Shown here in pieces: positions 9,086 through 25,325 of a stretch of 64,000 nt of DNA. A program made the translations under genes and the position numbers. Location of the stretch: the NCBI RefSeq assembly GCF_900475285.1, contig NZ_LS483370.1, positions 2,742,001 through 2,806,000 on the forward strand, in the 5' to 3' direction. The stretch is from Pseudomonas taetrolens (GTDB taxonomy: Bacteria; Pseudomonadota; Gammaproteobacteria; Pseudomonadales; Pseudomonadaceae). Under the pieces are notes generated by a model. It made no database searches. It was not told where the DNA came from and saw only the letters and a program-made list of their open reading frames with translations. Position 1 is the first letter of the stretch. Each line of letters opens with the position of its first letter.

Positions 9086-10338
9086 AAGCGCGGGCACCAA
9101 ATCCCTCACTTACTCCGGTTTCTCACAGCTTTCTGTTCCTGCAAGGCGTCAGCTCCCCGTTCTTCGCGCGGCTTACCAAATCGCTGCGCGAAATCGGTCA
9201 ACAAGTGCAATGCGTCAACTTCAATGTGGGCGACGTGCTGTACAGCCCTGGCGCACGCACGTTTTGTTCGGCGCACGCCGGGGAACTGGAAGCATTTTAT
9301 AGCCGTACGTTCCACCAGCTTGATGTCACCGACCTGGTGCTGTTCGGCGACTGTCGCCCCGTGCATCTCCCCGCCATCGCACTGGCCCGGCGCCTGGGCA
9401 TTCGGGTCCACGTGTTTGAAGAAGGCTATTTCCGTCCGTACTGGATCACCCTGGAGCGCGACGGCGTCAATAACAACTCGCAACTGCCGAATGACCCGGA
9501 CTGGTATCGGGAAGTCGGCAAGTTCATTCCGCGCTACGACAATGGTACGGCCTTCAAGCAGTCGTTTCTGACCCGGGCCACCCATGACGTGCTGTATCAC
9601 TGCGGCGGCGCGCTGAACAAGCTGTGCTTTCCGAACTACCGCACCCACGCCCCCTTTACGGCCGCCACTGAGTACGTCGGGTATATTCGCCGTGGTGCGC
9701 GCCTGTTGCTTTCAGGGGCTCGCGATGATGCTCTGGTGGCGCAAGTCGCGCGCGAGCGCAACCCAACGTTCCTGTTGCCGCTGCAATTGGACAGCGATGC
9801 ACAGATCAAGGATCACTCCCCCTTCAACAACATGTCCGAAGTGATCGACCATGTGCTGGCTTCGTTTGCCGCGCATGCGCCGGGCGACGCACGGTTAGTG
9901 GTCAAGGATCATCCGCTGACACCGGGGCTGGTGAACTATCAGCGCATCACCAAGACCCTCGCCAGACACTATGACGTAGTCGACCGGGTGGACTTTCTCG
10001 ACAGCGGGCATATGCCTACGCTGTTGTCGCACATTGCCGGGATGATCACGGTCAACAGTACTGCCGGCGCTTCGGCGCTGCTGCACAAGCGCCCGACCTT
10101 CGCCCTGGCCAACCCGATCTACGCCCTGCACGGCCTGACACAACCCGGCAGTCTTGACGATTTCTGGGCACACCCGATCGAACCGGACATGGCTCTGTTT
10201 CATCATTTCCGCAACACGGTGATTCACACCACACAGATCAATGGCGGTTTTTATTCCCGCAGTGGTATCGACCTGGCCGTAAACCAATGCCTGGACGTGC
10301 TGATGGCAAAAACATCGAGAATTGAAAGCTTCCTATGA
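9025..10338 (+). CDS. kpsS: Capsule polysaccharide beta-Kdo transferase KpsS
   Basis: Single-module Capsule_synth protein. It shows the KpsS core 'FLFLQGVSSPFFARL' (~40), 'VHVFEEGYFRPYWITLERDG' (~140), 'FLLPLQLDSD' (~250), 'VVKDHPLT' and 'ITVNSTAGASALLHKRPTF' (~345). KpsS adds the first Kdo to the lipid acceptor that KpsC then extends. The chosen ATG lies 61 bases inside kpsC; the family core starts only at residue ~33 (near 9120), so the true start could be a little later, but no other ATG is present before it. The 3' end overlaps the SDR gene by ATGA. Confidence 0.9.
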   Translation: MAGFDTALEQFVGQNAPEKLKARAPNPSLTPVSHSFLFLQGVSSPFFARLTKSLREIGQQVQCVNFNVGDVLYSPGARTFCSAHAGELEAFYSRTFHQLDVTDLVLFGDCRPVHLPAIALARRLGIRVHVFEEGYFRPYWITLERDGVNNNSQLPNDPDWYREVGKFIPRYDNGTAFKQSFLTRATHDVLYHCGGALNKLCFPNYRTHAPFTAATEYVGYIRRGARLLLSGARDDALVAQVARERNPTFLLPLQLDSDAQIKDHSPFNNMSEVIDHVLASFAAHAPGDARLVVKDHPLTPGLVNYQRITKTLARHYDVVDRVDFLDSGHMPTLLSHIAGMITVNSTAGASALLHKRPTFALANPIYALHGLTQPGSLDDFWAHPIEPDMALFHHFRNTVIHTTQINGGFYSRSGIDLAVNQCLDVLMAKTSRIESFL

Positions 10339-11111
10339 CCCAACGCTCTACGCCCCGCTGTATTTTCATCACTGGTGCGACTGGCGGAATCGGCGGCGCA
10401 CTGGCTCCGGCCTATGCTGCACCAGGGGTGACCCTGATCCTGCAAGGCCGTCGCCTGGACCGCCTGGAAGAAATGGCCGCCGAGTGCCGCGCTCGCGGTG
10501 CCCGTGTCTTGCTTGAACCGATTGATGTACGCGAACTCGACGAATTGCGCGCCATGGTGCGACGCATCAGTGACGCCGAACAACCCGATCTGGTCGTGAT
10601 AGGTGCCGGCATCAACATCGACATCGGCCCTCAGGGTCAAGGTGAGCAGTGGGATGAAACCCGCGCCCTACTGGAAATCAACGTGATGGCCGCGTTCGCC
10701 ACGGTGGAGGCCGCCTTGCCTGCCATGCGCGCCCGTGGTCATGGACAAATTGCGCTGTTCAGCTCGCTGGCCGGGTGGCGCGGATTACCGGTGACGCCGA
10801 GCTACAGCGCGAGCAAGGCTGCGATCCGCGTGTATGGCGAAGCCATTCGCGACTGGCTGGCCCCCGAAGGCGTGAAGATCAATGTGATCGTGCCCGGTTA
10901 TGTCGAGTCGAAAATGTGTTTTGAAATGCCTGGGCCCAAGCCTTTTCTATGGACCGCTGAAAAAGCGGCCAATCGCATCAAGCGCGGTCTGGCGGCAAAC
11001 CAGGCGCGTATCAGCTTCCCCTTTCCGCTGAACCTTGGCACCTGGCTGCTGGGGGTGATTCCGCAGCGCCTTTCTTCGTTTATCTTGCGCGGTCTGAATT
11101 ACAGTGAGTGA
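10335..11111 (+). CDS. Short-chain dehydrogenase/reductase of the capsule lipid module
   Basis: A 258-residue classical SDR: NAD(P)-binding 'TGATGGIGGALA' (residues 13-24, TGxxxGxG), Asn in 'LEINVMAAF' and the catalytic set Ser144, Tyr157, Lys161 ('SYSASK'). The C-terminal ~40 residues ('FPFPLNLGTWLLGVIPQRL') are hydrophobic, as in SDRs that work on membrane lipids such as 3-ketosphinganine reductases. The start overlaps the kpsS stop by four bases and the end overlaps the next gene by eight, so it is translationally coupled. By context it may reduce the 2-amino-3-ketone expected from the oxoamine synthase; this is inference. It recalls WcbP of the Burkholderia pseudomallei capsule I cluster (from memory). 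Confidence 0.8.
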   Translation: MTQRSTPRCIFITGATGGIGGALAPAYAAPGVTLILQGRRLDRLEEMAAECRARGARVLLEPIDVRELDELRAMVRRISDAEQPDLVVIGAGINIDIGPQGQGEQWDETRALLEINVMAAFATVEAALPAMRARGHGQIALFSSLAGWRGLPVTPSYSASKAAIRVYGEAIRDWLAPEGVKINVIVPGYVESKMCFEMPGPKPFLWTAEKAANRIKRGLAANQARISFPFPLNLGTWLLGVIPQRLSSFILRGLNYSE

Positions 11112-12618
11112 GTTTTCCATTCTGCACATCAGTATTGTTGGCCTGCTGATCACCGTTTTGCTCGAACGCCTGCTGATTCCGCGGCCTGAGCTGCGCCGCC
11201 CCTTGAGCTGCTGGTCGCTGCACGCGGGTATCTGGTGCGTCAGCCTGGCGCTGCTGTACGGTTTGACCGCGCGCCCGCTGTTCAGCGGGATCAATGTGGT
11301 ACTGGGCTGGTTGTTGATTGTGATGGTCAGCAACGCCAAGTACCACTCGCTGCGCGAGCCGTTCGTATGCGCCGATTTCGAGTACTTCAGCGACGCCGTA
11401 CGTTTCCCGCGACTGTACCTGCCATTTTTCGGCATCGGTAAAGCCGCCCTGCTGGCCATCGGCTTTGTCATCTACCTCTGGGCAGGGCTGACCTTTGAAC
11501 CACAAGTGGCCGGGGGCCGGCTTGATGCGCTATGGCTGGGCCTGGCCGGGGTGATCCTGCTGAAGCTGGGCCATCGTCGCGATGTACCGAGCTTTGATGC
11601 GCGTGCCGATGTGCAGCGCTGGGGGCTGGCAGCCAGCCTGTGGCGCTATTTTTGGGCCGCCCGTGCACCGGTTGATCCGGCGACCCTGGCCTCGCCTTTC
11701 GATCAGGGCAACATCGCAGCGTCTACCGCGCCATTACCCGACCTGGTGTCGGTGCAGAGCGAGTCTTTTTTTGACGTGCGCGAACTGTGGTCCGGTGTCA
11801 AACCTCAGGTATTGACCGAGTACGACCGCCTCGCAGAAGAAGCTCTGGCACGTGGCAAGCTGCAGGTAGCCGCGTGGGGTGCCAATACCGTGCGCACCGA
11901 ATTCGCTTACCTGACGGGCATTCCCGGCGAACGCTTAGGGGTTCACCGCTTTAATCCATACCGTGTACTGGCGCGCAAGGGCTTGCCGAGTATTGCCAGC
12001 CACCTCAGGGCGCAAGGCTACCGCACGGTCTGTATTCACCCGTTCCATGGCAGCTTTTATGGACGCAACAAGGTGTTGCCCGCCCTGGGTTTCGACGAGT
12101 TCATCGACGTGCGCAGCTTTGATGAGTCGCAGAAAGCCGGACCCTTTATCGGTGATTGCGCCGTGGCGGACAAAATCCGCGAACTGCTGCAAGACCCGAC
12201 CCGCACTCAACCCCTGTTCATCCACGCCGTGACCATGGAAAACCATGGGCCGCTGCACCTTGAACAGGTTGATGCGGCGCAACTGCCCACCTGGTTTGAC
12301 CAGCCTCTGCTGCCAGGCATGGACGATCTGGCCCCCTACTTGCGACATATCGCCAATGCCGACCTGATGCTCGGCAAGCTGCGCACGACCCTCCAGGAAC
12401 AAGCCAACGAAACGCTGCTGTGTTTCTTTGGCGACCATGTGCCCATCCTGCCCAATGTTTATCAGGCCGTTGGCGAGCCCGCAGGCGATACCGATTACCT
12501 GATCTGGTCCAACCGCCGCCCGTTCAACGTCACCCCAAGCCCGCTGCGGGTCGATGCGCTGGCCAGTCGTTTACTGGCCTGTGCTGCTCAAACACGCCCC
12601 ATCAGCGGAGCCGAATGA
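11104..12618 (+). CDS. Membrane LtaS/MdoB-like phosphotransferase or sulfatase
   Basis: 504 residues, GTG start coupled to the SDR stop. The first ~155 residues hold about four membrane segments (around 5-25, 38-55, 62-77, 112-130, with another possible at 141-155). From ~210 follows an alkaline-phosphatase-fold domain with the metal and nucleophile residues of lipoteichoic-acid synthase-like enzymes: Glu220 ('VQSESFFD'), Thr262 ('GANTVRTEF'), His381 ('MENHGPL'), Asp444-His445 ('FFGDHVPI'). Family members transfer phosphoglycerol or phosphoethanolamine from phospholipids outside the cytoplasmic membrane, or hydrolyse sulfate esters. Here the domain may decorate the capsule or its lipid. The acceptor is unknown. 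Confidence 0.75.
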   Translation: MSEFSILHISIVGLLITVLLERLLIPRPELRRPLSCWSLHAGIWCVSLALLYGLTARPLFSGINVVLGWLLIVMVSNAKYHSLREPFVCADFEYFSDAVRFPRLYLPFFGIGKAALLAIGFVIYLWAGLTFEPQVAGGRLDALWLGLAGVILLKLGHRRDVPSFDARADVQRWGLAASLWRYFWAARAPVDPATLASPFDQGNIAASTAPLPDLVSVQSESFFDVRELWSGVKPQVLTEYDRLAEEALARGKLQVAAWGANTVRTEFAYLTGIPGERLGVHRFNPYRVLARKGLPSIASHLRAQGYRTVCIHPFHGSFYGRNKVLPALGFDEFIDVRSFDESQKAGPFIGDCAVADKIRELLQDPTRTQPLFIHAVTMENHGPLHLEQVDAAQLPTWFDQPLLPGMDDLAPYLRHIANADLMLGKLRTTLQEQANETLLCFFGDHVPILPNVYQAVGEPAGDTDYLIWSNRRPFNVTPSPLRVDALASRLLACAAQTRPISGAE

Positions 12619-12621
12619 AGC

Positions 12622-13200
12622 ATGGTTGCCATCGTGCCGGGATCGAGCCTGACGCCCGACCTGCTCGCCGATCCCAAGCTGTCACGCCTGGTGACCGATG
12701 GCCGGGGGTCGCTGTCCTTTATCCTCGGCAATGCTGCCTCACGCCAGCGCCTGTTGAGCGCCAGCATTCACTGGGACCGTATACTGCTGGCCTTCGAAGA
12801 CGGACACGCCGTGGGCTATGCCGCGCTCAAGTACCGGATGCGCGGACCGTTTGCGTTGCGCATCCAACCGTTTGTTCACGAATTTGGCTGGCTCAGCGGC
12901 ACCCTGCGGTTTGCCGCGTTCTGCTTGAGCGAGTGGCGCGAATGGCGTTACCCGTTCTTGCTGTATGGCTTGCGGGTCCGCAAATCGGCGCGCAATCACG
13001 GCATCGCCAGCGCGCTGCTGCAGGCGTGCAGCAAACAGGCAGCGGCCTGTGGATTTACAGCTGTTTATCTGGAAGTGCCGCTGGCCAATGACCGCGCACG
13101 CCATCTGTACCTGCAAAACGGTTTTAGCCTGCTGCGCAAGCGCTGGGTGCCGTGGCCGCCGGTGCGCAGCATGCGCCGCGACGTGGAGGCTCAGCCATGA
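12622..13200 (+). CDS. GNAT-family N-acyltransferase
   Basis: A 192-residue protein with the GNAT acetyl-CoA loop 'RKSARNHGIASALL' (R-x-x-G-x-A around residue 125) and the C-terminal motif 'NDRARHLYLQNGF'. Starts three bases after the preceding stop and overlaps the second kpsC by ATGA, so it belongs to the operon. The acceptor cannot be told; an amino group on a sugar or on the amino-alcohol lipid suggested by the neighbouring genes are both possible. Confidence 0.75.
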   Translation: MVAIVPGSSLTPDLLADPKLSRLVTDGRGSLSFILGNAASRQRLLSASIHWDRILLAFEDGHAVGYAALKYRMRGPFALRIQPFVHEFGWLSGTLRFAAFCLSEWREWRYPFLLYGLRVRKSARNHGIASALLQACSKQAAACGFTAVYLEVPLANDRARHLYLQNGFSLLRKRWVPWPPVRSMRRDVEAQP

Positions 13201-15323
13201 GCGGTCTCGACACCCCCGTCAGCCCTTTGCAGCCGCTGGTTGAAGGGCCCGGCTGGATCGGCATCATGTCGCAATGGGTAGCGTGGAAGGTGCTGCATTT
13301 GCCGCAGTTTCTCGGCCCGGAAGGCGAGCCATTCTGGTTGTGGCAGCGCGGGCGGCATGCGCCCAAAGACCTGAAAGCGATCGCCGGGATTGGCTACAAA
13401 CAGTCATCGGCTCACGCGCGGGTACTGTGCCAGCGCTGGGGCTTGACCTACATCGCACTGGAAGACGGTTTTCTGCGCTCTTCGTCACTGGGTATCGAAG
13501 GTGACACGCCGATGTCGATGGTGGTCGACCCGGTGGGTATCCACTACCTGGCTGATCGCCCTTCCCTGCTGGAAAATATTCTTCAGAACCCCGACAGCCT
13601 TCATCCTGATGAACTTCAAAGTGCCCGCCAACTGATCGATTTGATGCGTCGTACCGGTATCGGCAAATACAACAACGCGCCCGACCTTGACCCCGCCGAC
13701 CCGCTGGGCCGCGAGCAGCCGTTAATACTGGTGGTGGATCAGACCGCCGGCGATTATTCGATTCCGGGTGGCGGGCTGTGCGAAGCCGATTATGTGCGCA
13801 TGCTTGACGTGGCAATCGCCGAAAACCCGGACGCCGACGTCCGTGTGCGCATTCATCCGGACTGCATTGGCGGGCAAAAGCCCAGTTGCCTGCTCGCCGC
13901 CGCAACTGCACGGGGTGTCCCGCTGGAAAGCCGGCCGGTGTCCTGGGCTTCGTTGGCGCGGCGTGCGCGCCGGGTCTACATCGGTACCAGTCAGGCGGGG
14001 CTTGAAGCCCTGATTCAAGGCGTGCCCGTGACCTGCTTTGGCCTGCCTTTCTATGCAGGCTGGGGCCTCACGGACGACCGCATGCCCATCCCACGGCGCC
14101 AGGCCCGACCGGACCTGGTGCAACTGGTGGCAGCCGCTTACATACGCTACAGCCGCTATGTCGATCCACTCACCAGTCTGCCGACCGATGCCCTGACCAT
14201 CGCGCGTCAGTTGGCCCGACAGAAAGCACAAGATGCCGAGTTTGCCGGGAACATCACGGTGCTCGGGATCAAACGGCATAAACAGCACAACCTGCGGCGT
14301 TTTTTCAGCAGCCGCTGGGGTCAGTTGACGTTCACCACAGACAGCCCGGCGCTCCTGGAGAACCTGGCCACCAAGCGCGGCACCTTGCTGGTGTGGGCAG
14401 CCCGTGAACCGGCCAGCCTCAAGGCCCGCGCTCAGGCCGCGAACGTGCCGGTATGGCGTATCGAAGATGGCTTTTTGCGTTCCAGCGGGCTGGGCTCGCT
14501 CAATGCCCCGGCAGTGTCGCTGGTACTCGACCGCAGCGGCATCCACTACGATGCCGGCGCACCTTCTGACCTGGAAACCCTGCTCGAACACGGCGACTTT
14601 GACGCTGCTACGCTGGCAGAAGCCGCCCGACTGCGCGAGCGGATCGTGGCTCTGGGCGCCAGCAAGTTCAACCTCAAAAGTGACGCCGATCACCGCGTAC
14701 GGGCACGACCAGGCCAGCGCCGGATTCTGATACCCGGCCAAGTGGAAGATGACGCCTCACTGCGCTGCAGTATTACTGCCCTGCACGACAATCTGGCGCT
14801 GCTCAGGCATGTTCGCAGCACTGCGCCGGATGCCTGGATCGTGTACAAGCCGCACCCGGATGTCGAAGCAGGCAAACGTTGTGGCCGCGTGAGCGACGCC
14901 GAGTTGCACGGACTGGCCGACCAAGTGTTGCCCAGTACCGATATCACCCGGCTCTACGCCCAGGTCGATGAAGTGCATACCCTCAGTTCGACTGCCGGCT
15001 TCGAAGCCTTGCTGCGCAATTTGACCGTCGTCACCTATGGCACCCCGTTTTATGCCGGCTGGGGTCTGACTCAGGACCAGCAGCCGTTGACCCACCGTAC
15101 CCGGCGTCTTAGCCTGGATGAATTGGTCGCCGGTGTCCTGTTGCGCTATGCACGCTATAACGACCCCCACACCGCGCTGCCCTGCGATGCGTGGCATGCG
15201 CTAACATGCCTGTCGAACCCTCGCCCGCCACGCCTGAGCCACCGGCCGCGCGTTCGGGCATTGCTCAATTACACCCGGACCATGCTCGGATTTCGCCGAG
15301 CAGTGGCTCCGCTAAAGGATTAG
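13197..15323 (+). CDS. Second two-module KpsC-like beta-Kdo transferase
   Basis: 708 residues from ATG 13197, which overlaps the GNAT stop (ATGA); the frame is open 15 codons higher, but that part lies inside the GNAT gene. It repeats the KpsC module plan: 'LEDGFLRSSSLGIEGDTPMS' and 'IEDGFLRSSGLGSLNAPAVS'; 'VVDQTAGDYSIPGGG' and 'ILIPGQVEDDASLRC'; 'VRIHPD' and 'VYKPHPDV'; 'FYAGWGLT' twice. It clearly differs from the first copy, so it is not a recent tandem duplicate. Both halves keep the family motifs. Two complete KpsC proteins plus KpsS in one operon suggest either a longer or different Kdo-type linker or Kdo in the repeat unit. Confidence 0.85.
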   Translation: MSGLDTPVSPLQPLVEGPGWIGIMSQWVAWKVLHLPQFLGPEGEPFWLWQRGRHAPKDLKAIAGIGYKQSSAHARVLCQRWGLTYIALEDGFLRSSSLGIEGDTPMSMVVDPVGIHYLADRPSLLENILQNPDSLHPDELQSARQLIDLMRRTGIGKYNNAPDLDPADPLGREQPLILVVDQTAGDYSIPGGGLCEADYVRMLDVAIAENPDADVRVRIHPDCIGGQKPSCLLAAATARGVPLESRPVSWASLARRARRVYIGTSQAGLEALIQGVPVTCFGLPFYAGWGLTDDRMPIPRRQARPDLVQLVAAAYIRYSRYVDPLTSLPTDALTIARQLARQKAQDAEFAGNITVLGIKRHKQHNLRRFFSSRWGQLTFTTDSPALLENLATKRGTLLVWAAREPASLKARAQAANVPVWRIEDGFLRSSGLGSLNAPAVSLVLDRSGIHYDAGAPSDLETLLEHGDFDAATLAEAARLRERIVALGASKFNLKSDADHRVRARPGQRRILIPGQVEDDASLRCSITALHDNLALLRHVRSTAPDAWIVYKPHPDVEAGKRCGRVSDAELHGLADQVLPSTDITRLYAQVDEVHTLSSTAGFEALLRNLTVVTYGTPFYAGWGLTQDQQPLTHRTRRLSLDELVAGVLLRYARYNDPHTALPCDAWHALTCLSNPRPPRLSHRPRVRALLNYTRTMLGFRRAVAPLKD

Positions 15324-15326
15324 TCC

Positions 15327-16370
15327 ATGTCTGCTTCATTGAAGGATCTGGGCCGTTATGCAGCGCTGCCATGGCATTGCCTGCAACTGCTGACCCACGC
15401 TAAATCGTTTGAGAACAACCCGGTGTTGGGCAGCGCCCGCCTCAATGCCATGGGCTTGCACGTGCAGCGTCGCCAAATGGCGATGAGCATGGCAGCAATG
15501 CGCCGCCGGGCACTGGCGTCGAAGCTGAACCCGGCCGAACTGGCAAGCTTCGAGGAGCAGGGATTCTTCGTGCGCGAAAATGCCCTGCCCGCCGAACAAT
15601 TTGCGGCCTTGCGTGCCGAACTGGGTGATTTGCGCAGCACTGGCTGGGAAATGCGTCAGGGCAAGGCTGTGACCCGGCGCGTAAGCCTGGACCAGGACGT
15701 GCTGGCGCAAAACCCGGCCACCGCTGCCTTCATCGCTGACCGCGGCGTGCGTGATCTGATTTCCTATGCGTCATCGAACACGGGCGGCATCACCTATCAA
15801 TTGCAGTCAATCGTGATCGACGCGGTCAATGCCGACGAAGACCCGCAAACCCGCCTGCACGCTGACACGTTCCACCCGACCGCCAAGGCCTGGTTGTTTC
15901 TGGATGACGTGGCCGACGATCAGGGGCCGTTCAGCTATGTGCCAGGGTCTCATCGCCTGACGCCCGAGCGGTTAGCCTGGGAGTATCGCCAGAGCCTGGG
16001 TGCAGCCCGCTCACCCGAGCAAATGCACCGCGAGGGTTCGTTCCGGATTTATGAGCATGAATTGGCCGGGCTGGGTTTACCGCCGCCGCGGCGTTTCTCG
16101 GTTCCCGCCAATACGCTGGTGGTGGCCGACACATCGGGATTCCACGCCCGTTGCCCGAGTTTGCGCCCGAGCCACCGCGTGGAAATCTACGCAAGCCTGC
16201 GCCGCAACCCGTTTATCCCCTGGCGCGGCGCCCACCTGTTCGCCCTGCCATGGATCGCCAACCACCACATGCGCTGGGACATTCGTCTCAAGCGCATGAT
16301 GGGGTTTGATAAACGCACTCATTGGCGGTTCATCGAACAGCTCAATGCCTACGAAAAGCCGTTTATCTAA
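15327..16370 (+). CDS. PhyH-type Fe(II)/2-oxoglutarate dioxygenase
   Basis: 347 residues, three bases after the second kpsC and last gene of the operon. Iron-binding triad is visible: His178-x-Asp180 ('TRLHADTFH') and His273 ('DTSGFHARCPS'), with Arg284 ('PSHRVEIY') as the likely 2-oxoglutarate ligand; 'SYVPGSHRL' is the typical phytanoyl-CoA dioxygenase loop. Such enzymes hydroxylate fatty acyl chains and other small molecules. Beside a PKS and an oxoamine synthase it may hydroxylate the lipid chain; capsule sugar is the alternative. Residues 1-60 precede the catalytic domain and are of unknown role. Confidence 0.8.
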   Translation: MSASLKDLGRYAALPWHCLQLLTHAKSFENNPVLGSARLNAMGLHVQRRQMAMSMAAMRRRALASKLNPAELASFEEQGFFVRENALPAEQFAALRAELGDLRSTGWEMRQGKAVTRRVSLDQDVLAQNPATAAFIADRGVRDLISYASSNTGGITYQLQSIVIDAVNADEDPQTRLHADTFHPTAKAWLFLDDVADDQGPFSYVPGSHRLTPERLAWEYRQSLGAARSPEQMHREGSFRIYEHELAGLGLPPPRRFSVPANTLVVADTSGFHARCPSLRPSHRVEIYASLRRNPFIPWRGAHLFALPWIANHHMRWDIRLKRMMGFDKRTHWRFIEQLNAYEKPFI

Positions 16371-16392
16371 AATTTCAGGCAGCAAGCAAGCC

Positions 16393-16421: not shown

Positions 16422-16431
16422 AGTTGGCGGT

Positions 16432-17811
16432 TCAGCCCAGTCGCGCCATTTCTTCGGCCACGATGGCCACGGTCCGGCTGATCTGCTCTTCGGTGTGTTC
16501 ACACGACACAAAAAAGCGCACCCGCGCGGCTTGCTCCGGTACTGCCGGGTAGAGGATCGGCTGAGCGTTGATCCCGCGCTCAAACAAGGCGCTGGACAGC
16601 CGTCCCGCCTTGAGCGAGCTGCCGGTAATCACCGGTATCACGGCCAGCCCGGTACTGGTTGCCGTATCCAGCCCGGCCGCCTTGGCCAATCGCAAAAACT
16701 GCTCGCCACGAGCCTGGACGGTCTGCACTCGCTCATGGTCATTGACCAGGCAGCGCAGTGCCGCCAAAGCTGATGCCGTGACGGACGGCGGCATACCCAC
16801 ACTGTAGAGAAAACCCGGCGCCAGAAACTTCAAATGCTCCACCAGCGCCGTATTACCCGCAATGTAGCCACCGCAGCTGGCGAGGGTCTTGCTCAGGGTC
16901 CCCATCCATATATCGACGTCATCCCCGGCCAGGCCGAAGTGTTCACGTATACCCTTGCCTGTCACACCCATGACGCCCAGGGAATGAGCCTCATCGTCCA
17001 TCAGGAAGATTTTGTGCTTGCGCTTGAGTTCGACGAATCGCGGCAAGTCCGGATAGTCGCCATCCATGCTGTAAATGCCTTCGACCACCACCAGCACTCG
17101 CTCAAAATACTGGCGCTGCTCACCCAGAATCCGGTCCAGCGCTTGCCAGTCGTTGTGAGCAAAGCTCAGGCGACGGGCACCCGAGAGCTGAATGCCCTGC
17201 AACACACTGTTATGTACCAACTCATCATGCAGCACTAAATCCCGAGGGCCGAACAGATAGCCGATGGTGGTGACGTTCGTGGCATGACCGCTGACGAACA
17301 CAACCGCGTCATCCACTTGGTAAAAGCTGGCCAACTCGCGCTCCAGCTCACGGTGCAACGGTCGATCACCGGACACCACGCGACTGGCCGATACCGAGGT
17401 GCCGTAACGATCTATCGCGTCCTTGGCCGCCTGGGCCACGGCCGGATGCCCGGAGTAGCCCAGGTAGTTGTAACTGGCAAAGTTCACGTAGTCCCGACCG
17501 CCAATGCAGGTTTCAGCCCCCGCCAGTCCGTCATGCAAACGGAAAAACGGGTTGCCCAACCCCATGCGCGCAGCACTTTGCTGCATGAACTGCATCTGCT
17601 GATAGCCGGGATACTGATCGAACCGGTAAAACGCCTCGGGTACTTTCAGTGCCGCCTGCTGCGCCTGCTCAAGGGTCGCGCCATTGTTGTCTGCTGCTTC
17701 TGCACCGCTGCGACGGCGCTCCAGTGCTTGCTGGATCAACCGTTGCTTGATACCCCCACTCAGACCGCCGGGGGTTTTTGCACTTATCTCACTCAAGCAG
17801 GTATCACTCAC
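16432..17811 (-). CDS. PLP-dependent alpha-oxoamine synthase (serine palmitoyltransferase/AONS family)
   Basis: 459 residues, GTG start overlapping the PKS stop (GTGA), so it is translated together with the PKS. The oxoamine synthase core starts near residue 90 after an N-terminal extension of ~85 residues. Key motifs: 'SYNYLGYSGHP', 'YGTSVSASRVVSGD', 'HDELVHNSVLQG', 'MDDEAHSLGVMG' (Asp273, His276) and 'GTLSKTLASCGG' with the PLP lysine at Lys308. The family joins an amino acid to an acyl thioester with loss of CO2, giving a 2-amino ketone. Coupling with a PKS lacking a thioesterase suggests it releases the polyketide chain from the ACP. Amino-acid choice (serine, alanine, glycine) is not evident. 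It recalls WcbT of the Burkholderia pseudomallei capsule (from memory). Confidence 0.88.
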   Translation of the reverse strand: MSDTCLSEISAKTPGGLSGGIKQRLIQQALERRRSGAEAADNNGATLEQAQQAALKVPEAFYRFDQYPGYQQMQFMQQSAARMGLGNPFFRLHDGLAGAETCIGGRDYVNFASYNYLGYSGHPAVAQAAKDAIDRYGTSVSASRVVSGDRPLHRELERELASFYQVDDAVVFVSGHATNVTTIGYLFGPRDLVLHDELVHNSVLQGIQLSGARRLSFAHNDWQALDRILGEQRQYFERVLVVVEGIYSMDGDYPDLPRFVELKRKHKIFLMDDEAHSLGVMGVTGKGIREHFGLAGDDVDIWMGTLSKTLASCGGYIAGNTALVEHLKFLAPGFLYSVGMPPSVTASALAALRCLVNDHERVQTVQARGEQFLRLAKAAGLDTATSTGLAVIPVITGSSLKAGRLSSALFERGINAQPILYPAVPEQAARVRFFVSCEHTEEQISRTVAIVAEEMARLG

Positions 17812-20800
17812 TGAATCAAACGGTTAGGTGTTGCGACACTTTCGGTCAGCTCGGCCACTTGTTCCTGGGTCATGTGCGTGCCGTGACGAGCCAGGACACT
17901 TTCAGCCATCGCTGCAGGTGCCGACGACTCGTTGGCCGACGCCTCACCACGCAACAGGCTCAAAATACGCACGCTTAGCTTGTCAATGCTGGAGCTTTCG
18001 CTGAGTTCCATGACCGGCAGGCGAACGCCAAAGCGCTCTTCCAGGGCCACGATCAGCTCGACACTCATCAATGAGTCCAGCCCCAGCTCCTGCAACGGCC
18101 GCTGTGTATCCAGGCGCGATGCCGGCAGGCGCAGAATTTCACACACCTCGTGCTTGAGCAGTTCAGCAAAACGCTCCAGCAGCTGGTCATCGTCCAGCTC
18201 GACGAGCATGCGTTGAATGTCTTCGGCGTCGTTGTCGTCTTCCTGATCTCCGCCGTGAGCGCGCACCAACTCCAGGAAACGCGGGGACGCGGCGCTTGGC
18301 AGGAAACGCGACAAGGCTTTCCATTCCAGCTCCAGCACGCCGGTACCGTCATCGCCGTTGAGCAACATCTGCTCCAGGTGCGACAACGCGACTTCGGCTC
18401 GCAACGCAGCGCCGCCCATACGGCTTTGCAGCGCATCCTTGATCTGTTCGTTGCGGGCCAGAAAGCCGACATCGTCAATCGCGCCCCACAGCACGGCGGT
18501 TGCCGCCAGCCCTTGAGCACGGCGATATCGCGCCAGCGCTTCAAGCCAATGGTTGGCCGCCACGTAGTTGGCCTGTCCAGGGTTACCGAACAGTGTGGTG
18601 GCCGAAGAGAACATCACAAAGAAGTCCAGCGCCAGCTCACGGGTCAGTTGGTGCAGGTATTGTGCACCTTTGGCCTTGGGTTCCAGCACCCGTTGCAATT
18701 GCTCGGCGTCGAGATTGCGGATCAGGCTGTCGTCGATGACGGTGGCCGCGTGCACCAAGCCCCGTAGCGGGTACGGACTGGCGGCGATGCGCTCAAAGAC
18801 ACCGCGCAGTTGCACTTCATCAGTGATGTCACACGCCACTGCTTGCACATCAATACCTTGCGCGTGCCACACGGCAAGGCTTGGTTGAACCTCAAGACTG
18901 GCCGCGCCACGGCGACCCAGCAGCACCAGGTGCCGTGCGCCCTTGTCCACCAGCCACTGCGCGGTACGCAAGCCAAAGCCACCCACCCCGCCCGTGACCA
19001 GGTAAGTCGCTTCGCCACTGAGTTGCAGCGCCTTTTCTGGCTGGACACGGGTTTCCACCAAGTGCTCGATGGGGTTGCCATAGGTCACGACGATCTTGCC
19101 GATCTGACGGGCCTGCTGCATGTAGCGGAACGCTTCGACCACCTGGTTGGCGTCGAATTCGCGGAACGGCAGCGGGTGCAGGATGCCTTGTTCGAACAGC
19201 TCCATCATGTTCCCGAACAAACGTCGGGTCAGGTCCGGGCGCTCGCTCATCAACTGGTCGGCGTCGATGCCGAAATAACTGATGTTATTGCGAAACGGCC
19301 GCAAACCAATACGGGTGTTCTGGTAGAAGTCGCGCTTGCCCAACTCCAGGAAGCGGCCGAACGGTTTAAGGACTCGCAGGTTACGGTTGATCGCCTCACC
19401 TGCCAGCGAGTTGAGCACCACGTCGACACCCCGTCCGCCAGTCACCTCCAGCACTTCATCGGCGTACGCCAGCGAGCGGGAATCGAAGATGTGCTCAACA
19501 CCCAGCAGGCGCAGGAAATCGCGTTTCTCGTCACTGCCAGCGGTGGCATAGATCTCGGCACCGCACCATTTGGCGATTTGAATTGCGGCAATACCGACAC
19601 CGCCCGCAGCACCGTGGATCAGGACTTTCTCGCCCGGCTCCAGACGCGCCAAATAATGCAACGCGTAGTACACGGTGAAGAACGTACTCGGAATAGTCGC
19701 GGCCGCTTCGAACGACATCCCAGTCGGGATTTTCGCCACGGCGTTGGCGTTGGTCACCAGACGGTTGGCAAAACTGCAGGGGCCAAAGCCTACGACCCGG
19801 TCGCCGGGGGCAAAATCGCCCAAGACTTCAGCGCCCTTGCCTTGCACCACACCGGAAAATTCGAAACCCAGAGTCGGGCCAGAGAAACCGTTCTCGATGG
19901 CTTCATCGGACAACAGCCCCAGTGCAAACATCACGTCGCGGAAGTTGAGGCCCGTGGCGCGTACGGCAATGTCCAGTTCATCTACCGCCGGCACACTTGG
20001 ATCGCGCACTTCCCAACGCAGGTTGCGCAATTGACCCGGCAGGTCAAAGCCCAGGCTGATTCGGCTGTCCTTGGCGTCAACTGGCTGGGCCCGTTCCGCC
20101 AGCACCCGCAGACGCGGCACATAGCGTTGACCGTCAGCCGTGATGGCCATCTCGGTCTCGGCATCGGCATGCAACAGCGCCGGGATCAGACTGACTAAAG
20201 GTGCGTTGAGTGCCAGATCCAGCAGGCGGATGCGGCAGTTGGCGGATTCATTGGCCAGGGTTCGGCCAAAGCCCCAGAAGGCCGCATCGGCAATGGCATC
20301 CACATCCGTCGCAGGTTCGGCACCGTACCAGTGACCCGCCGCACCACGGCTGAGCAGCCAGCACGTCGGGGCCATGCCCAACGATTCGCACGCCTGGACC
20401 AACGCAGCCGCCTGCATGCAGCGGGCACCCTGTGCGTCCAGACCGTGTGCCGCATCAAGACCGGCCATATGCACGACATGATCAGGGGCTTGATCCAGCG
20501 CCAGCAATTGCTGCGCCACCGCCTGAACATCCCCCGGCACCAGCAGGCTCACCGTCTGCCCTTGCTCGCGCAAGGCGTAGGCCAGTTGCTCTGCGCCCGC
20601 GTGCTGAGCTTGCGCCAGCAACGCCCAGTGCTGCACGGTGACTTCAGGTGCAACGCTGCCCGTGTTGTCGAGCTTGCCGGCCAGCAACAGATAACTGCCA
20701 CAGGCATTGCCCGGCAAGGCCTCAAGGGTATGGGTCAGGTTCAGACCGTGGCGTTGCAGCTCTACCTGCCAGAACGACGGGCGCTGTTGGCGCGACAATG

Positions 20801-23800
20801 CCTGTTCCGGACCTGCCAGCCACCAGTCACTCTGGGCACCGAACACAAAGTCGGCCCAGCGCGCAGGGTGCTGGGCCAGCAGCGCCACTTCGCCATGCGG
20901 GTTGAGATGGCTACCGGCCTGGCGCAGTGCTTCGCCCACGGTATCCAGAGCCGCCAGATCGCTGGGCACCAGCACCCAGTCAAAGTTGCCGGCAGCACTC
21001 AGTTGCGCGAAATCAATCAGGTTCAGCGCCGGGCAATCAACGCGCAGCATCTGCGCCAACTCCGGCTCCGCTACGCAATAGGTGTAATCGACGCGATCAA
21101 AATCGATCCCGGCGTACAGCGACTCGGCAAACGACGGCCCGCCCAGACCCAGTTCCAGCACCCGAAGGCGCTGGCCGTCAGGCAACGCTGCCAAACGCTG
21201 CGCAAGGGTATCGCGCACACCGGCCAACAAACGTTGCTGGCCCACTGCACCCAGCACCAGACGCACCAGGTTGGCGCCACTGGTTTCGCGGGGCAGCAGT
21301 TGCTCAAGGGTTTGTTCCCCGTTAAGCAATGCCTGCAAATGGCGGCCGATGCGGCCCACCGAATGAATCAGCTGGAAATGTTCCGGGTAGCTCTGGAACA
21401 GCTCTTGCCAAATGGCTTGGCTGGAAGGACGCTCAGCAGCATCGACAACGCTCACGCAGCCATTGGCATCGCGGCTCAGGCTGCCGTCTTCCAGGCCCAG
21501 ACGCAGCAAGGTGCTGAGGTAGTGGCTGGAAACGCCCTCCTGTTGCGACCAGAGGTCAATTTGCTCTGCACTCAGTTGACCGCCCGCTTGCTCGATCAGG
21601 TCCTGCACAAAGCTTGTGCACAACACATCCAGCAACGGCTCGACTTCGTTCAGGTAGCACAACTGCACAGGCTCATCGGCCAGCGTCTGGAAATGCGGCA
21701 GCAGCGGCGTGCTGCCGATGGCTTCACGCTGCACGGGGGTGACCTGACCGGGAGCAGCCAGGCCCACATGTGCCATGTGTTTGATATCGCCGTTGCGATC
21801 ACGCTGCAGACGCACACCGCGAAAGCGCGCGTCCTTTATCGACAACACGGCAGCGCCAGTGGCGTCGAACAGGGTGAAATCCACCAGCAATGAATGCTCG
21901 GTACGCTTGAGTTGGCGCACTTCCGCCAGGCATGGCACGCCGCCCGCCCTGGCGTAGGCGATGCGTCCCAGTTTCACCGGAATAAACGCCAGCCCCTTGT
22001 TCGTGCCGGGCTGGCCCACCAGCAATTCGGTAATCAGCTGGAACGCGCCATCCAGCAACGCCGGGTGCACATACAGGTCGTCCATTTCAGGGCGGATGAC
22101 CTCGGGAACGCTCAATTGCGCAAGGATGCGCGCCGGCTCGACCCACACTGCCGCGACGGTTTGATAAGCCGGGCCGTAGTTCAGGCCCACCGCACAGGTC
22201 AGCGCCAAATGTTGCGCACCGGTAAAGTCCGCCGGACGCGACGGCAAAGCCGGTGCACGCCCGCCCAGCATCACGCCTCGAGCTTCACCGGGCAGCCGCG
22301 CCACCACGTGCTGTACCCATTCTTCGTGCTGGGCCAGGCCACGGGAAGCAATATGCAAAGTGCCATCAGCCGGTTCGATATTGATCCGGATTTTTTTACT
22401 GCCGTCATGGCTGAGCAGCAGCGGGTTGTGAATTTCCAGTTCTTCGATGTCGACGAACTCACCCGGCTGATGCTGCAAGGCCGCCGCCAGTGCCAGCTCG
22501 CTAAAGCCAGCGCCCGGAAACAGTACCGCTTCACCGACCTTGTGATCGCCCAGGCTAGGGAACACCTGGGTATCGAGGCGGTTTTCCCAGGTCAGTGCAC
22601 GATCAGGCAGCAAGTGGCCCAACAACGGGTGCACGCGCTTGCGTTGCAGCACCCCGAGCGACTCGGCGCTGACCGGCAGATAGAAGTGTTCGCGCTGCCA
22701 GCTGTAGTTCGGCAGCTTTACATGGCGCCCGGTGACCGGAAAGTGCGTTTGCCACTGTGGTTGCGCACCGGCAATCAGCAGTTTGGCAACGCTGCGCTCC
22801 AGCAGGAAAACGCTGTTATCCATGCGCAACAGTGTCGCAATCACTTGGCCGGAGCGCTCGGCGCTGGTCAGTGCATCCGTGACATAGGAGCGCAGGATCG
22901 GGTGCGGGCCCACCTCGACAAACAGGTTGAAGCCCTGCGCCACCAGTGCATCCATCGCACCCTGGAACAACACCGGCATGCGAATGTTCTGCCACCAGTA
23001 GTGGCCGTCCAGACGCTCACCCTCCAGCTGGGCGCCGACCACAGTGGAATAAAACGGCAATGTGGTACTGCGCGGACGGATGTGCGCCAGATCAGCAATC
23101 ACTTGCTGCTCTATAGGGTTCATGCTCGGGGAATGGAACGCGTAGTCCAGGTCCAGCAAGCGGATAAACACCTGGCGCTCGCTCAACACTTGCTCCAGTT
23201 GAGTCAACGCTTCAAGCGGACCGGCCACCGTGGCGCCACGGGAGCTGTTTTCGCCCGCGATCACCAGTAACTGCTCCAGCCCCAGTTCCACCAGCACTGC
23301 CGAGGTCGCTTCGGCGCAGAGGCCGACGGCGGCCATACGGCCAGTACCCCGGGTCAGCCCTTGCAGACGACTGCGATGGAAAATCACTTGGGTCGCGTCT
23401 TCGAGGCTCAGGGCGCCGCTGGCCCAGGCGGCCGCGACTTCGCCGACGCTGTGCCCGATCACCGCGGATGGATGAAAACCTTGCGCCACCAGCACGCGGG
23501 TGACTGCAACTTGCAAGGCAAACAGCGCAGGTTGCGCAATCTCGGTACGCACATAACGGTCGTCGCCGTTTTCGCCCGACAGTTCAGCCCGCAGCGAATA
23601 ACCGGCCAACGGCTGGAACAGTGCATCGACTTCGGCCACGGCCGCTTCAAACACCGGGTCGCCGAGCATCGCCCGGCCCATGCCTTGCCATTGCGAACCG
23701 TTGCCCGAGTAGACAAAGACCGGGCCCTGAGCGTTGTCCAGCGCCTGACCGGCTTCGACCACGGAGCTCAATTCGCTGAGGCTCGGATCTTGGGCGTAGT

Positions 23801-25325
23801 CGGCCAGCGCTTGCGCAGCTTCGGCACAATCGGAGCCAATCAGCAGCAAGCGATGGCTGTGGGCATCACGGCGAAACAGGGCCTGATAGGCCACGTCGTA
23901 AAAATCGGCTTCCGGCCTGGACGCCAGATATTCAGCGTAATCCTGAGCGGTTGCACGCAGGCCGTCGGCGTCTTTGGCGCTGAGCATCAACGGCAGACGG
24001 CGGCCAGGTGTTGACGCGCGCGAGACGGCCAGCGGCTCGGCGCTTTGCAAAATAACGTGAGCGTTGGCGCCACCAAACCCGAAAGAGTTGATACCGACAG
24101 TCAGTTGCCCTTCAGCCTTGAGCGGCTGATTGGCGGTAACCACCTGCAGGTTGAGGTCGGCAAACGGAATCGTCGGGTTGAGTGCATCGCCGCCGATGGT
24201 CGCAGGTACCATCCGCTCACTCAGGCAATTGAGGGCCTTCATCAACCCCGCCACGCCCGATGCCGCCTCGAGATGCCCCATGTTGCTTTTGACAGACCCT
24301 ATCGGCAGCGGGTTACCCGCCCCGCGGGCCTGACCCAATGATTCACCAATGGCACGACTCTCAATGGGGTCACCCACTGCGGTGCCTGTGCCATGGGCTT
24401 CGAGGTAGTCCAGCTGCGAGGGGTCGATACCGACCTTGGCGTAGATGCCTTTGAGCAGCGCCGCCTGCGCTTCAGCGCTGGGCAGCGTCAGGCTCGACTT
24501 GCGGCCATCGGTATTGACCGCACTGGCCGCTACCACGGCCAAAATCGGGTTGCCGTCCGCCAGCGCCTGATCGTAGTCCTTGAGCAGGAACAGTCCACCG
24601 CCCTCCGAACGCGCATAGCCATCACCGTTCTGGTCAAACGACTGGCAACGCCCGGTACGCGACAACATCGAGGCCTTGGCAAAAATCATGAAACCGAACG
24701 GATGCATGTGCAGGCTAATGCCGCCGGTCACGGCCTGATCGATATCACCGCTGAGAATCGCCTGACACGCCTGATGGAAGGCCACCAGTGAGGACGAACA
24801 CGCGGTGTCGATGGCCATGCTGGGGCCACGCAGATCGTAAAAGAAGGACAGACGATTGGCGGCAATACTCATGGTATTGCCGGTGGCCGTGGCCGCGTCG
24901 ATGGACGCCATGTCATCGACCACACGGTAGGCCTGCTCGACGCTGGCAATACCCAAGTAAACGCCACAGTTGCTGCCGCGCAGGCTGGACGGTTTAACCC
25001 CGGCGTTTTCGAAGGTTTCCCAGCACATTTCGAGCAGCATGCGCTGTTGCGGATCCATCATCATGGCTTCGCGCGGCGAAATACTGAAAAAACCCGCATC
25101 AAAAGCGGTTATATCGCCCAGAGAGCCCGAGGCGAAGGTATACGTGGTGGCCGGACTGGCTTTGTCAGGGTGTAGAAACTCGGCATGTTCCCAGCGCGAG
25201 GCATCGACCTGAGTCACCAGGTCGCGCCCCTCCATCAGGTTCTGCCAGAAGCTGCTGGCCGTGGAACCGGGAAAACGGAAAGAATTACCAACAATTGCTA
25301 CCTGTCTACGTTTTGTCAAAACCAT
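17808..25325 (-). CDS. Highly reducing type I polyketide synthase (KS-AT-DH-(MT-like)-ER-KR-ACP)
   Basis: A 2505-residue single-module megasynthase. KS ~8-430 with Cys176 ('DTACSSSLV'), 'EAHGTGTAVGDP' and 'SNMGHLEAASG'; AT ~535-860 with 'GHSVGEVAAAWA' and 'YAFHSPS'; DH ~905-1190 with 'LGDHKVGEAVLFPG' and 'HPALLDGAFQ'; a region ~1290-1530 like a C-methyltransferase but with a weak SAM motif ('VLELGLGGPSFAES'); a structural KR part; ER ~1790-2100 ('VLIHGAAGGVGIAAIQ'); KR ~2130-2330 ('YLVTGGVGGFGLRTAQ', 'GQANYVAANHWLEALA'); ACP ~2390-2460 ('ELGLDSLMSVEL'). All reductive domains look intact, so an iteratively made saturated chain is expected. No thioesterase; the coupled oxoamine synthase is the likely release enzyme. 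AAGGA abuts ATG 25325; the TTG two codons on is better spaced and may be the real start. Resembles WcbR of B. pseudomallei (from memory). Confidence 0.92.
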   Translation of the reverse strand: MVLTKRRQVAIVGNSFRFPGSTASSFWQNLMEGRDLVTQVDASRWEHAEFLHPDKASPATTYTFASGSLGDITAFDAGFFSISPREAMMMDPQQRMLLEMCWETFENAGVKPSSLRGSNCGVYLGIASVEQAYRVVDDMASIDAATATGNTMSIAANRLSFFYDLRGPSMAIDTACSSSLVAFHQACQAILSGDIDQAVTGGISLHMHPFGFMIFAKASMLSRTGRCQSFDQNGDGYARSEGGGLFLLKDYDQALADGNPILAVVAASAVNTDGRKSSLTLPSAEAQAALLKGIYAKVGIDPSQLDYLEAHGTGTAVGDPIESRAIGESLGQARGAGNPLPIGSVKSNMGHLEAASGVAGLMKALNCLSERMVPATIGGDALNPTIPFADLNLQVVTANQPLKAEGQLTVGINSFGFGGANAHVILQSAEPLAVSRASTPGRRLPLMLSAKDADGLRATAQDYAEYLASRPEADFYDVAYQALFRRDAHSHRLLLIGSDCAEAAQALADYAQDPSLSELSSVVEAGQALDNAQGPVFVYSGNGSQWQGMGRAMLGDPVFEAAVAEVDALFQPLAGYSLRAELSGENGDDRYVRTEIAQPALFALQVAVTRVLVAQGFHPSAVIGHSVGEVAAAWASGALSLEDATQVIFHRSRLQGLTRGTGRMAAVGLCAEATSAVLVELGLEQLLVIAGENSSRGATVAGPLEALTQLEQVLSERQVFIRLLDLDYAFHSPSMNPIEQQVIADLAHIRPRSTTLPFYSTVVGAQLEGERLDGHYWWQNIRMPVLFQGAMDALVAQGFNLFVEVGPHPILRSYVTDALTSAERSGQVIATLLRMDNSVFLLERSVAKLLIAGAQPQWQTHFPVTGRHVKLPNYSWQREHFYLPVSAESLGVLQRKRVHPLLGHLLPDRALTWENRLDTQVFPSLGDHKVGEAVLFPGAGFSELALAAALQHQPGEFVDIEELEIHNPLLLSHDGSKKIRINIEPADGTLHIASRGLAQHEEWVQHVVARLPGEARGVMLGGRAPALPSRPADFTGAQHLALTCAVGLNYGPAYQTVAAVWVEPARILAQLSVPEVIRPEMDDLYVHPALLDGAFQLITELLVGQPGTNKGLAFIPVKLGRIAYARAGGVPCLAEVRQLKRTEHSLLVDFTLFDATGAAVLSIKDARFRGVRLQRDRNGDIKHMAHVGLAAPGQVTPVQREAIGSTPLLPHFQTLADEPVQLCYLNEVEPLLDVLCTSFVQDLIEQAGGQLSAEQIDLWSQQEGVSSHYLSTLLRLGLEDGSLSRDANGCVSVVDAAERPSSQAIWQELFQSYPEHFQLIHSVGRIGRHLQALLNGEQTLEQLLPRETSGANLVRLVLGAVGQQRLLAGVRDTLAQRLAALPDGQRLRVLELGLGGPSFAESLYAGIDFDRVDYTYCVAEPELAQMLRVDCPALNLIDFAQLSAAGNFDWVLVPSDLAALDTVGEALRQAGSHLNPHGEVALLAQHPARWADFVFGAQSDWWLAGPEQALSRQQRPSFWQVELQRHGLNLTHTLEALPGNACGSYLLLAGKLDNTGSVAPEVTVQHWALLAQAQHAGAEQLAYALREQGQTVSLLVPGDVQAVAQQLLALDQAPDHVVHMAGLDAAHGLDAQGARCMQAAALVQACESLGMAPTCWLLSRGAAGHWYGAEPATDVDAIADAAFWGFGRTLANESANCRIRLLDLALNAPLVSLIPALLHADAETEMAITADGQRYVPRLRVLAERAQPVDAKDSRISLGFDLPGQLRNLRWEVRDPSVPAVDELDIAVRATGLNFRDVMFALGLLSDEAIENGFSGPTLGFEFSGVVQGKGAEVLGDFAPGDRVVGFGPCSFANRLVTNANAVAKIPTGMSFEAAATIPSTFFTVYYALHYLARLEPGEKVLIHGAAGGVGIAAIQIAKWCGAEIYATAGSDEKRDFLRLLGVEHIFDSRSLAYADEVLEVTGGRGVDVVLNSLAGEAINRNLRVLKPFGRFLELGKRDFYQNTRIGLRPFRNNISYFGIDADQLMSERPDLTRRLFGNMMELFEQGILHPLPFREFDANQVVEAFRYMQQARQIGKIVVTYGNPIEHLVETRVQPEKALQLSGEATYLVTGGVGGFGLRTAQWLVDKGARHLVLLGRRGAASLEVQPSLAVWHAQGIDVQAVACDITDEVQLRGVFERIAASPYPLRGLVHAATVIDDSLIRNLDAEQLQRVLEPKAKGAQYLHQLTRELALDFFVMFSSATTLFGNPGQANYVAANHWLEALARYRRAQGLAATAVLWGAIDDVGFLARNEQIKDALQSRMGGAALRAEVALSHLEQMLLNGDDGTGVLELEWKALSRFLPSAASPRFLELVRAHGGDQEDDNDAEDIQRMLVELDDDQLLERFAELLKHEVCEILRLPASRLDTQRPLQELGLDSLMSVELIVALEERFGVRLPVMELSESSSIDKLSVRILSLLRGEASANESSAPAAMAESVLARHGTHMTQEQVAELTESVATPNRLIQ

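Follow-up and report, generated by a model that had tools for sequence, protein, structure and literature searches.

The window analysed here, a 64,000-nucleotide stretch of the Pseudomonas taetrolens genome (contig NZ_LS483370.1, positions 2,742,001 to 2,806,000, part of a 4.84-Mb single contig), carries a polyketide synthase (PKS) and an alpha-oxoamine synthase (AOS) whose genes converge with a capsule operon. We propose that the product of this cluster is a sphingoid lipid dedicated to anchoring, a sphinganine-phosphoglycerol that would act as the acceptor for a capsule linked through 3-deoxy-D-manno-oct-2-ulosonic acid (Kdo) and exported by an ATP-binding cassette (ABC) transporter, and we consider this account probable, with considerable room for doubt. 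The pathway chemistry very likely follows that of the orthologous SgaA and SgaB of Pseudomonas fluorescens MYb115; the anchor role we infer from joining that chemistry with the genetics of the rkp-1 and wcb capsule loci, together with comparative support. The sphingoid chemistry is already known, having been published for SgaA and SgaB, and the rkp-1/wcb type of gene content and its lipid role are likewise in print. What is new here is the placing of the Sga-, Rkp- and Wcb-type AOS in one apparent clade, the likeness of an LtaS-like membrane protein to phosphoglycerol transferases with a catalytic domain predicted to be cytoplasmic, and an apparent split in two of KpsS, the enzyme that attaches the first Kdo to the lipid, with one clade holding all the sampled PKS-AOS rows and three SPT genomes that also have the LtaS-like gene.

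The polyketide synthase and the alpha-oxoamine synthase

By Pfam, the PKS (17808..25325, minus strand, 2505 aa) has the domain order ketosynthase (KS), acyltransferase (AT), dehydratase (DH), an unassigned stretch, enoylreductase (ER), ketoreductase (KR) and acyl carrier protein (ACP), and it is assigned as an iterative, fully reducing type I enzyme, the orthologue of SgaA, RkpA and WcbR. The motifs DTACSSS, HGTGT, GHSVGE, YAFH, DGAFQ, HGAAGGVG, TGGVGGFG and LGLDSL are present, the textbook DH pattern H-x3-G-x4-P has no exact match in the protein, and the stretch between DH and ER holds a degenerate S-adenosylmethionine-like motif, VLELGLGGPS, which raised chain methylation as a candidate step. 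No Pfam thioesterase match was found within 17808-25325. The AOS (16432..17811, minus strand, 459 aa; Aminotran_1_2, AOS group; orthologue of SgaB, RkpG and WcbT) overlaps the PKS, its GTG start sharing GTGA with the TGA stop of the larger gene; an earlier note, made from the window sequence, had described a fully reducing PKS lacking a thioesterase and coupled to an AOS, and that description holds. K308 of the AOS, the pyridoxal phosphate lysine by motif, is invariant in 10 of 10 aligned sequences. The PKS is 94% identical to that of genome G586 and 65-84% identical to those of other Pseudomonas loci.

In P. fluorescens MYb115, SgaA (PKS) and SgaB (AOS) make C24, C26 and C28 sphinganines that are abolished by deletion of either gene; SgaB catalyses the condensation of acyl-CoA with L-serine in vitro, with a nearly absolute preference for serine over alanine and glycine; and lipids heavier by 154 Da were assigned, from mass, as probable phosphoglycerol forms (passages of PMC12134224). 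By simple arithmetic the increment is that of a phosphoglycerol group, C3H7O5P. The same passages propose SgaC, a short-chain dehydrogenase/reductase (SDR), as the reductase, report plain sphinganines and probable phosphoglycerol forms with no N-acyl group, and treat the pathway as a secondary-metabolite cluster; in the main text of that paper, words that start with capsul, polysaccharide or rkp are absent. Judged by primer matches, the window PKS and AOS appear to be orthologous to SgaA and SgaB: of the sgaA primers, the one for the start and the one for the end each fit their end of the window PKS with a single mismatch, and an exact copy of the start primer occurs in 1 of 157 loci (L070). 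Through this orthologue, two suggestions of the earlier note gain support, namely that the polyketide chain is released with an amino acid (serine) to give a 3-keto sphingoid, and that the product receives a phospho head group.

An AOS tree of 103 rows, built by a quick method with named loci thinned and containing long branches, gathers 60 rows from Pseudomonas, Burkholderia, Bordetella, Halomonas, Nitrosomonas and Rhizobium in one set (SH-aLRT 97), separate from canonical serine palmitoyltransferase (SPT) and from BioF, and it is on this tree that the Sga-, Rkp- and Wcb-type enzymes seem to form one clade. We compiled 87 non-redundant loci with an AOS of this kind, leaving out 20 loci outside the clade and three duplicates, with membership assigned by the tree for loci in it and by identity for the others; flanks were cut at about 10 kb, so that all flank gene counts are lower bounds. 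PKS sequence lies in the flank of 84 of the 87, which argues that the PKS-AOS pairing exceeds chance. Chain release straight from the ACP is supported by natural ACP-AOS fusions. At L056 the whole PKS and the AOS form one 2611-aa protein (9832-17667, minus strand), in a genome (71% complete) with no match to PF05159, the KpsC/KpsS family; L143 holds a KR-ACP-AOS piece; and planctomycetes carry AMP-binding-ACP-AOS proteins (L120 7859-11332, L126 2911-6414, L144 318-3755). These planctomycete proteins fall in the sister set of the capsule AOS clade and may be fatty-acid-fed sphingoid synthases. At L129 (1-3195), from a Myxococcota metagenome-assembled genome (MAG), KR, DH and AOS share one frame in which no ACP was detected. 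Canonical SPT, called at E <= 1e-100, was not found in the P. taetrolens genome and was rejected on that ground as a source of the base there.

Linkage to Kdo-linked capsule genes

The capsule operon, on the plus strand and convergent with the PKS-AOS pair, consists of overlapping or tightly spaced genes, and all genes of the cluster are intact. It runs from KpsC, the beta-Kdo linker transferase (7064..9085), through KpsS (9025..10338), which Pfam and our trees suggest as the first beta-Kdo transferase on a sphingoid acceptor, to an SDR (10335..11111; Pfam, fold searches), the position-equivalent of SgaC, RkpH and WcbP and a proposed 3-ketosphinganine reductase, and an LtaS/GacH-like membrane phosphotransferase of the sulfatase superfamily and the RkpI/WcbQ type (11104..12618; Pfam, fold). 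There follow a GNAT acyltransferase (12622..13200), a second KpsC-type protein with two PF05159 stretches (13152..15323, with an alternative ATG start at about 13197) and a PhyH-type dioxygenase (15327..16370). Pfam thus bears out the gene content that the earlier note had read here. Upstream lie a cytidylyltransferase with a C-terminal HAD domain (3103..4389, plus strand), of the CMP-Kdo synthetase type by domain match, and a SIS-CBS protein (4666..5598, minus strand), which from its domain pair we take to be a KdsD-type arabinose-5-phosphate isomerase supplying the Kdo precursor. The P. taetrolens genome carries genes for KpsM, KpsT, KpsE and Poly_export 9-13 kb before the start of the window (2729046-2732691; L150 7046-10691). 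The locus therefore combines KpsC, KpsS, Kdo supply and a KpsMTED-type exporter, the components of a group 2 (KpsC/KpsS, Kdo-linked) capsule, with the rkp-1/wcb set of a monomodular PKS, AOS, SDR, sulfatase-like protein and KpsS-type protein. Two further genes stand nearby: an APH-type kinase between KdsD and KpsC (5841-6917, plus strand), which could phosphorylate a pathway sugar or lipid, and a TPR protein with a C-terminal PF05159 stretch (4-2103, plus strand), which adds another type of KpsC/KpsS relative to the locus. Viral contigs gave no match.

The association extends well beyond this genome. In samples of 398 genomes from the phylum and 199 from the genus, both including P. taetrolens, AOS called at E <= 1e-90 occurs in 22 and 8 genomes, respectively, one of the 8 (G437) having a distant type of pair, and PF05159 in 80 of the 398. 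PF05159 is present in 13 of 13 other phylum genomes whose AOS is at least 53% identical (a line chosen after the data were seen) versus 67 of the remaining 385 (Fisher p 4e-10), the match in one of the 13 (G324) being weak and on another contig. It is also present in 15 of the 19 phylum genomes with a PKS-adjacent AOS (own included), in 6 of 6 further Pseudomonas genomes whose AOS reaches 74% identity or more, and in 40 of the 50 AOS genomes tested (from 80 loci; four of the 50 carry planctomycete types outside the clade). At the level of loci, a capsule assembly or export gene lies in the flank of 43 of the 87, and PF05159 lies within about 18 kb by coordinates, contig identity being presumed, at 22 further loci (L040, L041, L043, L048, L073, L076, L077, L095, L096, L098-L101, L103, L107-L109, L112-L115 and L118). 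G549, whose contig ends about 0.9 kb beyond the AOS, was kept out of this judgement. The link to a Kdo capsule that the earlier note suggested is thus supported by comparative evidence: the PF05159 association, the capsule genes in the flanks and the KpsS split described below.

Other features of these loci vary. KpsC/KpsS genes are missing from the neighbourhood of a more distant PKS-AOS set (L056-L058, L069), and at L056 and L057 the flank shows only a KpsT-like ATPase match; L069, in Pseudomonas G437, is a second and more distant PKS-AOS pair (AOS 44%) whose flank is free of capsule genes. A NusG/RfaH-like antiterminator gene stands directly behind the PKS-AOS operon at L040 (11376-11891) and also at L041, L095, L099 and L100, and a formyl-transferase-like gene lies near the AOS at L082 (11348-12193), its family being matched in 6 of the 87 loci. 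An LpxC-type deacetylase was considered as a general step and rejected: each of seven Pseudomonas genomes tested carries one copy. Extra LpxC copies occur in G324 (Burkholderia-like) and in some other phylum genomes.

The proposed reductase, the LtaS-like protein and the KpsS split

At its C-terminal end the SDR model has two helices (residues 230-241 and 244-253), consistent with the hydrophobic C-terminus pointed out in the earlier note. Its nearest folds are HSD17B13 and 11beta-HSD1, other membrane-bound lipid SDRs, and KDSR is not among the PDB matches listed for it in sequence and fold searches. The ketoreductase role that the earlier note suggested for this protein is retained as probable; its standing as a proven KDSR is not, since neither kind of search gave a decision. 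The SDR and LtaS-like genes stay in tandem even where both are unlinked from PKS-AOS: in Nitrosomonas europaea, Leeia and a betaproteobacterial MAG (L093, L097, L086), KpsM, KpsT and KpsE lie beside the AOS and the SDR-LtaS-like pair lies elsewhere in the genome, which suggests that in these genomes the tandem goes with PKS-AOS even when the two are apart. The LtaS-like gene was found in 9 of 15 genomes screened; the six others are G437, G322, G169 (outside clade), G012, G265 and G262.

For the LtaS-like protein, sequence and predicted structure (pLDDT 88) place the lipoteichoic acid (LTA) primase, GacH and LtaS ahead of sulfatases and MCR-1/EptA, the best fold match being GacH, followed by LtaP and LtaS. 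All 15 family members compared, those from Rhizobium included, share E220, T262, D444 and H445. These residues are presumably catalytic, by analogy with LtaS; the fold and the Glu, Thr and Asp-His residues assign the protein to the LtaS/GacH group. In the structure model the helices (6-21, 34-55, 58-83, 111-131 and 138-156) all precede the catalytic domain. With a helix threshold of 0.7, looser than the 0.9 applied to the window protein and to other PF00884 membrane proteins, all 15 family members have five helices, which those of the model match, and an excess of positive charges on the side of the catalytic domain (8-15 versus 1-3). We predict from these models that the catalytic domain is cytoplasmic and propose, on sequence and structure, that the protein is a phosphoglycerol transferase to sphinganine. 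It shares its fold and the presumed catalytic residues with LtaS, LtaP and GacH; its catalytic domain would lie on the opposite side of the membrane from that of LtaS, which faces outward, and the enzyme would then work where KpsS works.

KpsS trees provide a second line of comparative evidence. The first, of 41 rows, drew 21 of them from 19 PKS-AOS genomes (two each from G262 and G265; G324, with only a weak PF05159 match, was omitted) and held 20 AOS-minus rows taken by descending score, G341 and G235 being passed over because their family was already sampled; the PKS-AOS trait required 2 label changes on it versus 14 in shuffles. The second left out L240, a long branch on the AOS-minus side, and added two Escherichia coli rows, for a total of 42. 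The 21 PKS-AOS rows and three genomes with SPT form one clade (97/87), and every other row, the two from E. coli included, falls outside it. The three additional members (G303, G317, G327) have no PKS-AOS at E <= 1e-90 and carry canonical SPT. Of the 20 KpsS genomes that lack PKS-AOS, these three and no others have the LtaS-like gene (a chance of 1 in 1140 under independence), which adjoins KpsS or lies one gene away, within a capsule locus. Another SPT genome, G103, has neither the LtaS-like gene nor this KpsS type; all six sample genomes with both SPT and PF05159 were in the tree. Taxonomy is not the whole explanation of the split, because family f51 (G265 inside, G392 outside, in the first tree) and probably family f20 (G328 outside, Burkholderia rows inside, their family code deduced from G324) have members on both sides. 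The window KpsS scores 283 against the cut-off of 600 of the NCBIfam KpsS equivalog NF050054, and five AOS-minus KpsS also fall below it (345-395); scores of L246, L249 and L263, whose longest frame is probably not the KpsS frame, were left out. G262 and G265 carry two KpsS paralogues each (L257, L258, L259, L260).

Proposed pathway, alternatives and known systems

In the pathway we propose, the iterative PKS would build a long saturated chain on its ACP, as the product shown for SgaA suggests, and the AOS would join this chain to L-serine to give 3-ketosphinganine, most likely straight from the ACP; serine specificity is argued from SgaB acting with acyl-CoA, and ACP use from the fusions. The SDR would reduce the ketone to sphinganine, and the LtaS-like enzyme would place phosphoglycerol on the 1-hydroxyl at the cytoplasmic face. 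The resulting sphinganine-phosphoglycerol, which we liken to lyso-phosphatidylglycerol (lyso-PG) because of its one long chain and free glycerol end, would be the acceptor for KpsS and then for the Kdo linker made by KpsC, and the capsule would be polymerised on this anchor and exported by KpsMTED, as is known for group 2 capsules. More broadly, we see an even chance that a branch of ABC-exported capsules in gamma-, beta- and alphaproteobacteria is built on sphinganine-phosphoglycerol instead of phosphatidylglycerol, with a base from SPT or PKS-AOS, an inside-facing LtaS type and a KpsS clade of its own; a sphingolipid would then be the lipid carrier that work on rkp-1 and wcb has been looking for since the 1990s. 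If the anchor proposal is true, it names the long-unknown lipid of these capsule genes, gives the recently discovered PKS-made sphingolipids a purpose in the cell envelope, predicts sphingolipids in many relatives of Pseudomonas, Burkholderia, Halomonas, Bordetella and Rhizobium, and joins a bacterial sphingolipid pathway to a 30-year-old puzzle of capsule anchoring. Among the matches listed in a title and abstract search of open-licence PMC, none joined sphingolipid, sphinganine, SPT or AOS to capsule, Kdo, KpsS or anchor.

Several observations weigh against this proposal. The AOS scores below the curated cut-offs of all three NCBIfam SPT models that it matches (NF047599, NF047600 and NF047603: 270, 293 and 213 bits against 500, 640 and 670), so that it is an SPT by orthologue function and not by family; the MYb115 AOS 3'-end primer matches the window only in unrelated places and with 7 mismatches; and the sequence of the window-type SDR gives no proof of a 3-ketosphinganine reductase. 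The topology of the LtaS-like protein is sensitive to helix count. At 0.9 the window protein, called with four helices, and L200 and L201 are reversed; the family as a whole is mixed, with the domain of L191-L194 and L222 inside, that of L190 and L217 narrowly inside, and that of L200, L201 and L214, called with four or six helices, outside. Of 11 five-helix PF00884 controls outside the family, also at 0.9, seven were placed outside and four inside, the latter by narrow margins (9:7, 10:9, 11:9 and 6:5). PF05159 is absent from 4 of the 19 PKS-adjacent AOS genomes. The N. europaea, Leeia and MAG genomes, which have PKS-AOS and the SDR-LtaS-like pair, also lack it, and Kdo transfer is therefore not universal. 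G262, G265 and G167 combine PKS-AOS and this KpsS type with no detectable LtaS-like gene; the AOS-minus KpsS rows come from near the top of a score list and were not drawn at random; and of the three SPT genomes that join the KpsS clade, two are from one family. The poly-Kdo of Sinorhizobium meliloti Rm1021 is reportedly borne on a phospholipid anchor, a report, taken from its title, that may or may not fit. Finally, in MYb115 free sphinganines are present and have effects on the host (passages of PMC12134224), so that anchoring may not be their sole role.

The last point leads to an alternative that we judge unlikely, although it deserves weight: PKS-AOS would be a secondary-metabolite pathway for free sphingolipids acting on hosts or on the membrane, and its adjacency to capsule genes would be historical. 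This is how the passages of PMC12134224 present the MYb115 pathway. In the complete Pseudomonas genome G400, PKS-AOS lies at 2.70 Mb and a KpsS-SDR-LtaS-like-GNAT-KpsC2 operon at 4.66 Mb, about 2 Mb apart, and this pair and the distant clusters L056-L058 and L069 are cases of PKS-AOS without neighbouring capsule genes, which the earlier note had named as grounds for giving up its view. Such cases stand beside the capsule linkage of 43 of 87 flanks, and against the alternative are the repetition of that linkage across gamma-, beta- and alphaproteobacteria, the division of KpsS with the trait, and the published involvement of rkpG, rkpH, rkpI and rkpJ in capsule production (titles and review passages).

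Somewhat less probable again is an anchor consisting of an N-acylated or otherwise modified sphingoid, ceramide-like or lipid A-like, made with GNAT, PhyH or the Burkholderia LpxC homologue. Sphingoid bases in SPT genomes would normally be acylated, GNAT is present in Pseudomonas, and at the Burkholderiaceae locus L115 an LpxC homologue (9051-9959; PF03331, 2e-64) sits between PKS and AOS with a weak GNAT behind the AOS. These genes are in the minority, with GNAT in 7, LpxC in 9 and PhyH in 5 of the 87 flanks, and the MYb115 products described in the passages of PMC12134224 are plain and carry no N-acyl group. The hydroxylation by PhyH and N-acylation by GNAT envisaged in the earlier note are therefore not retained, both genes being placed outside the conserved core because of their flank counts.

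We regard as improbable a third alternative, in which the lipid would carry the capsule transiently, or be required as a partner in the membrane for export by KpsMTED, and the finished capsule would rest on phosphatidylglycerol. The title of Muller 2009, as cited, speaks of secretion. Secretion is also named in passages of a review, and the wording 'lipid carrier or anchor' (PMC3557214, in part) leaves room for this idea; it is disfavoured because KpsS acts before export and tracks the trait. That the genes are chance neighbours without a functional link is very improbable indeed in view of their conserved order and overlap, and we found no point in its favour.

The proposed anchor pathway has relatives among known systems. 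Fungal fumonisin and sphingofungin pathways share PKS-derived sphingoid-like chains and a KDSR homologue (passages of PMC12134224), and the solved sphingofungin aminoacyl transferase 9pep is a distant relative of the window AOS; the window cluster differs in being bacterial and in its proposed envelope use. The E. coli K5 group 2 capsule shares KpsC, KpsS and KpsMTED (PMC7694667 and PMC11041684, in part) and differs in that E. coli KpsS lies outside the window KpsS clade and that its lipid terminus is (lyso-)PG with poly-Kdo, lyso-PG being primed by KpsS in K5 (PMC7694667, in part). SgaABC of MYb115 resembles the window in the PKS ends recognised by primers, in an AOS that follows the PKS and, judging from locus-tag spacing, in four genes between SgaC and the AOS; in the window those four are the LtaS-like, GNAT, second KpsC and PhyH genes, to which the MYb115 genes may be equivalent. 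It differs in having been described as a secondary-metabolite cluster.

The gene content is that of the wcb and rkp-1 capsule clusters. At the Burkholderia loci L115 and L152 the order is KpsS-SDR-LtaS-like-PKS-LpxC homologue-AOS, so the earlier note was right about shared content; the LpxC homologue between PKS and AOS is the difference, and the wcbO-T names of these genes are our own presumption. The Rhizobium loci L148 and L149 read PKS-AOS-SDR-LtaS-like-KpsS, the set of rkpA-G-H-I-J, some individual rkp and wcb identities at the Rhizobium and Burkholderia loci again being assumed; the window differs in having AOS-PKS on the opposite strand and in adding KpsC, a second KpsC, GNAT and PhyH. 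For that system, rkpA is described as apparently producing a lipophilic molecule which rkpGHIJ would alter and transport and which may serve the capsule as carrier or anchor (PMC3557214, in part); according to a review, a specific lipid carrier is synthesised and modified by the products of rkp-1 (PMC4881576, in part).

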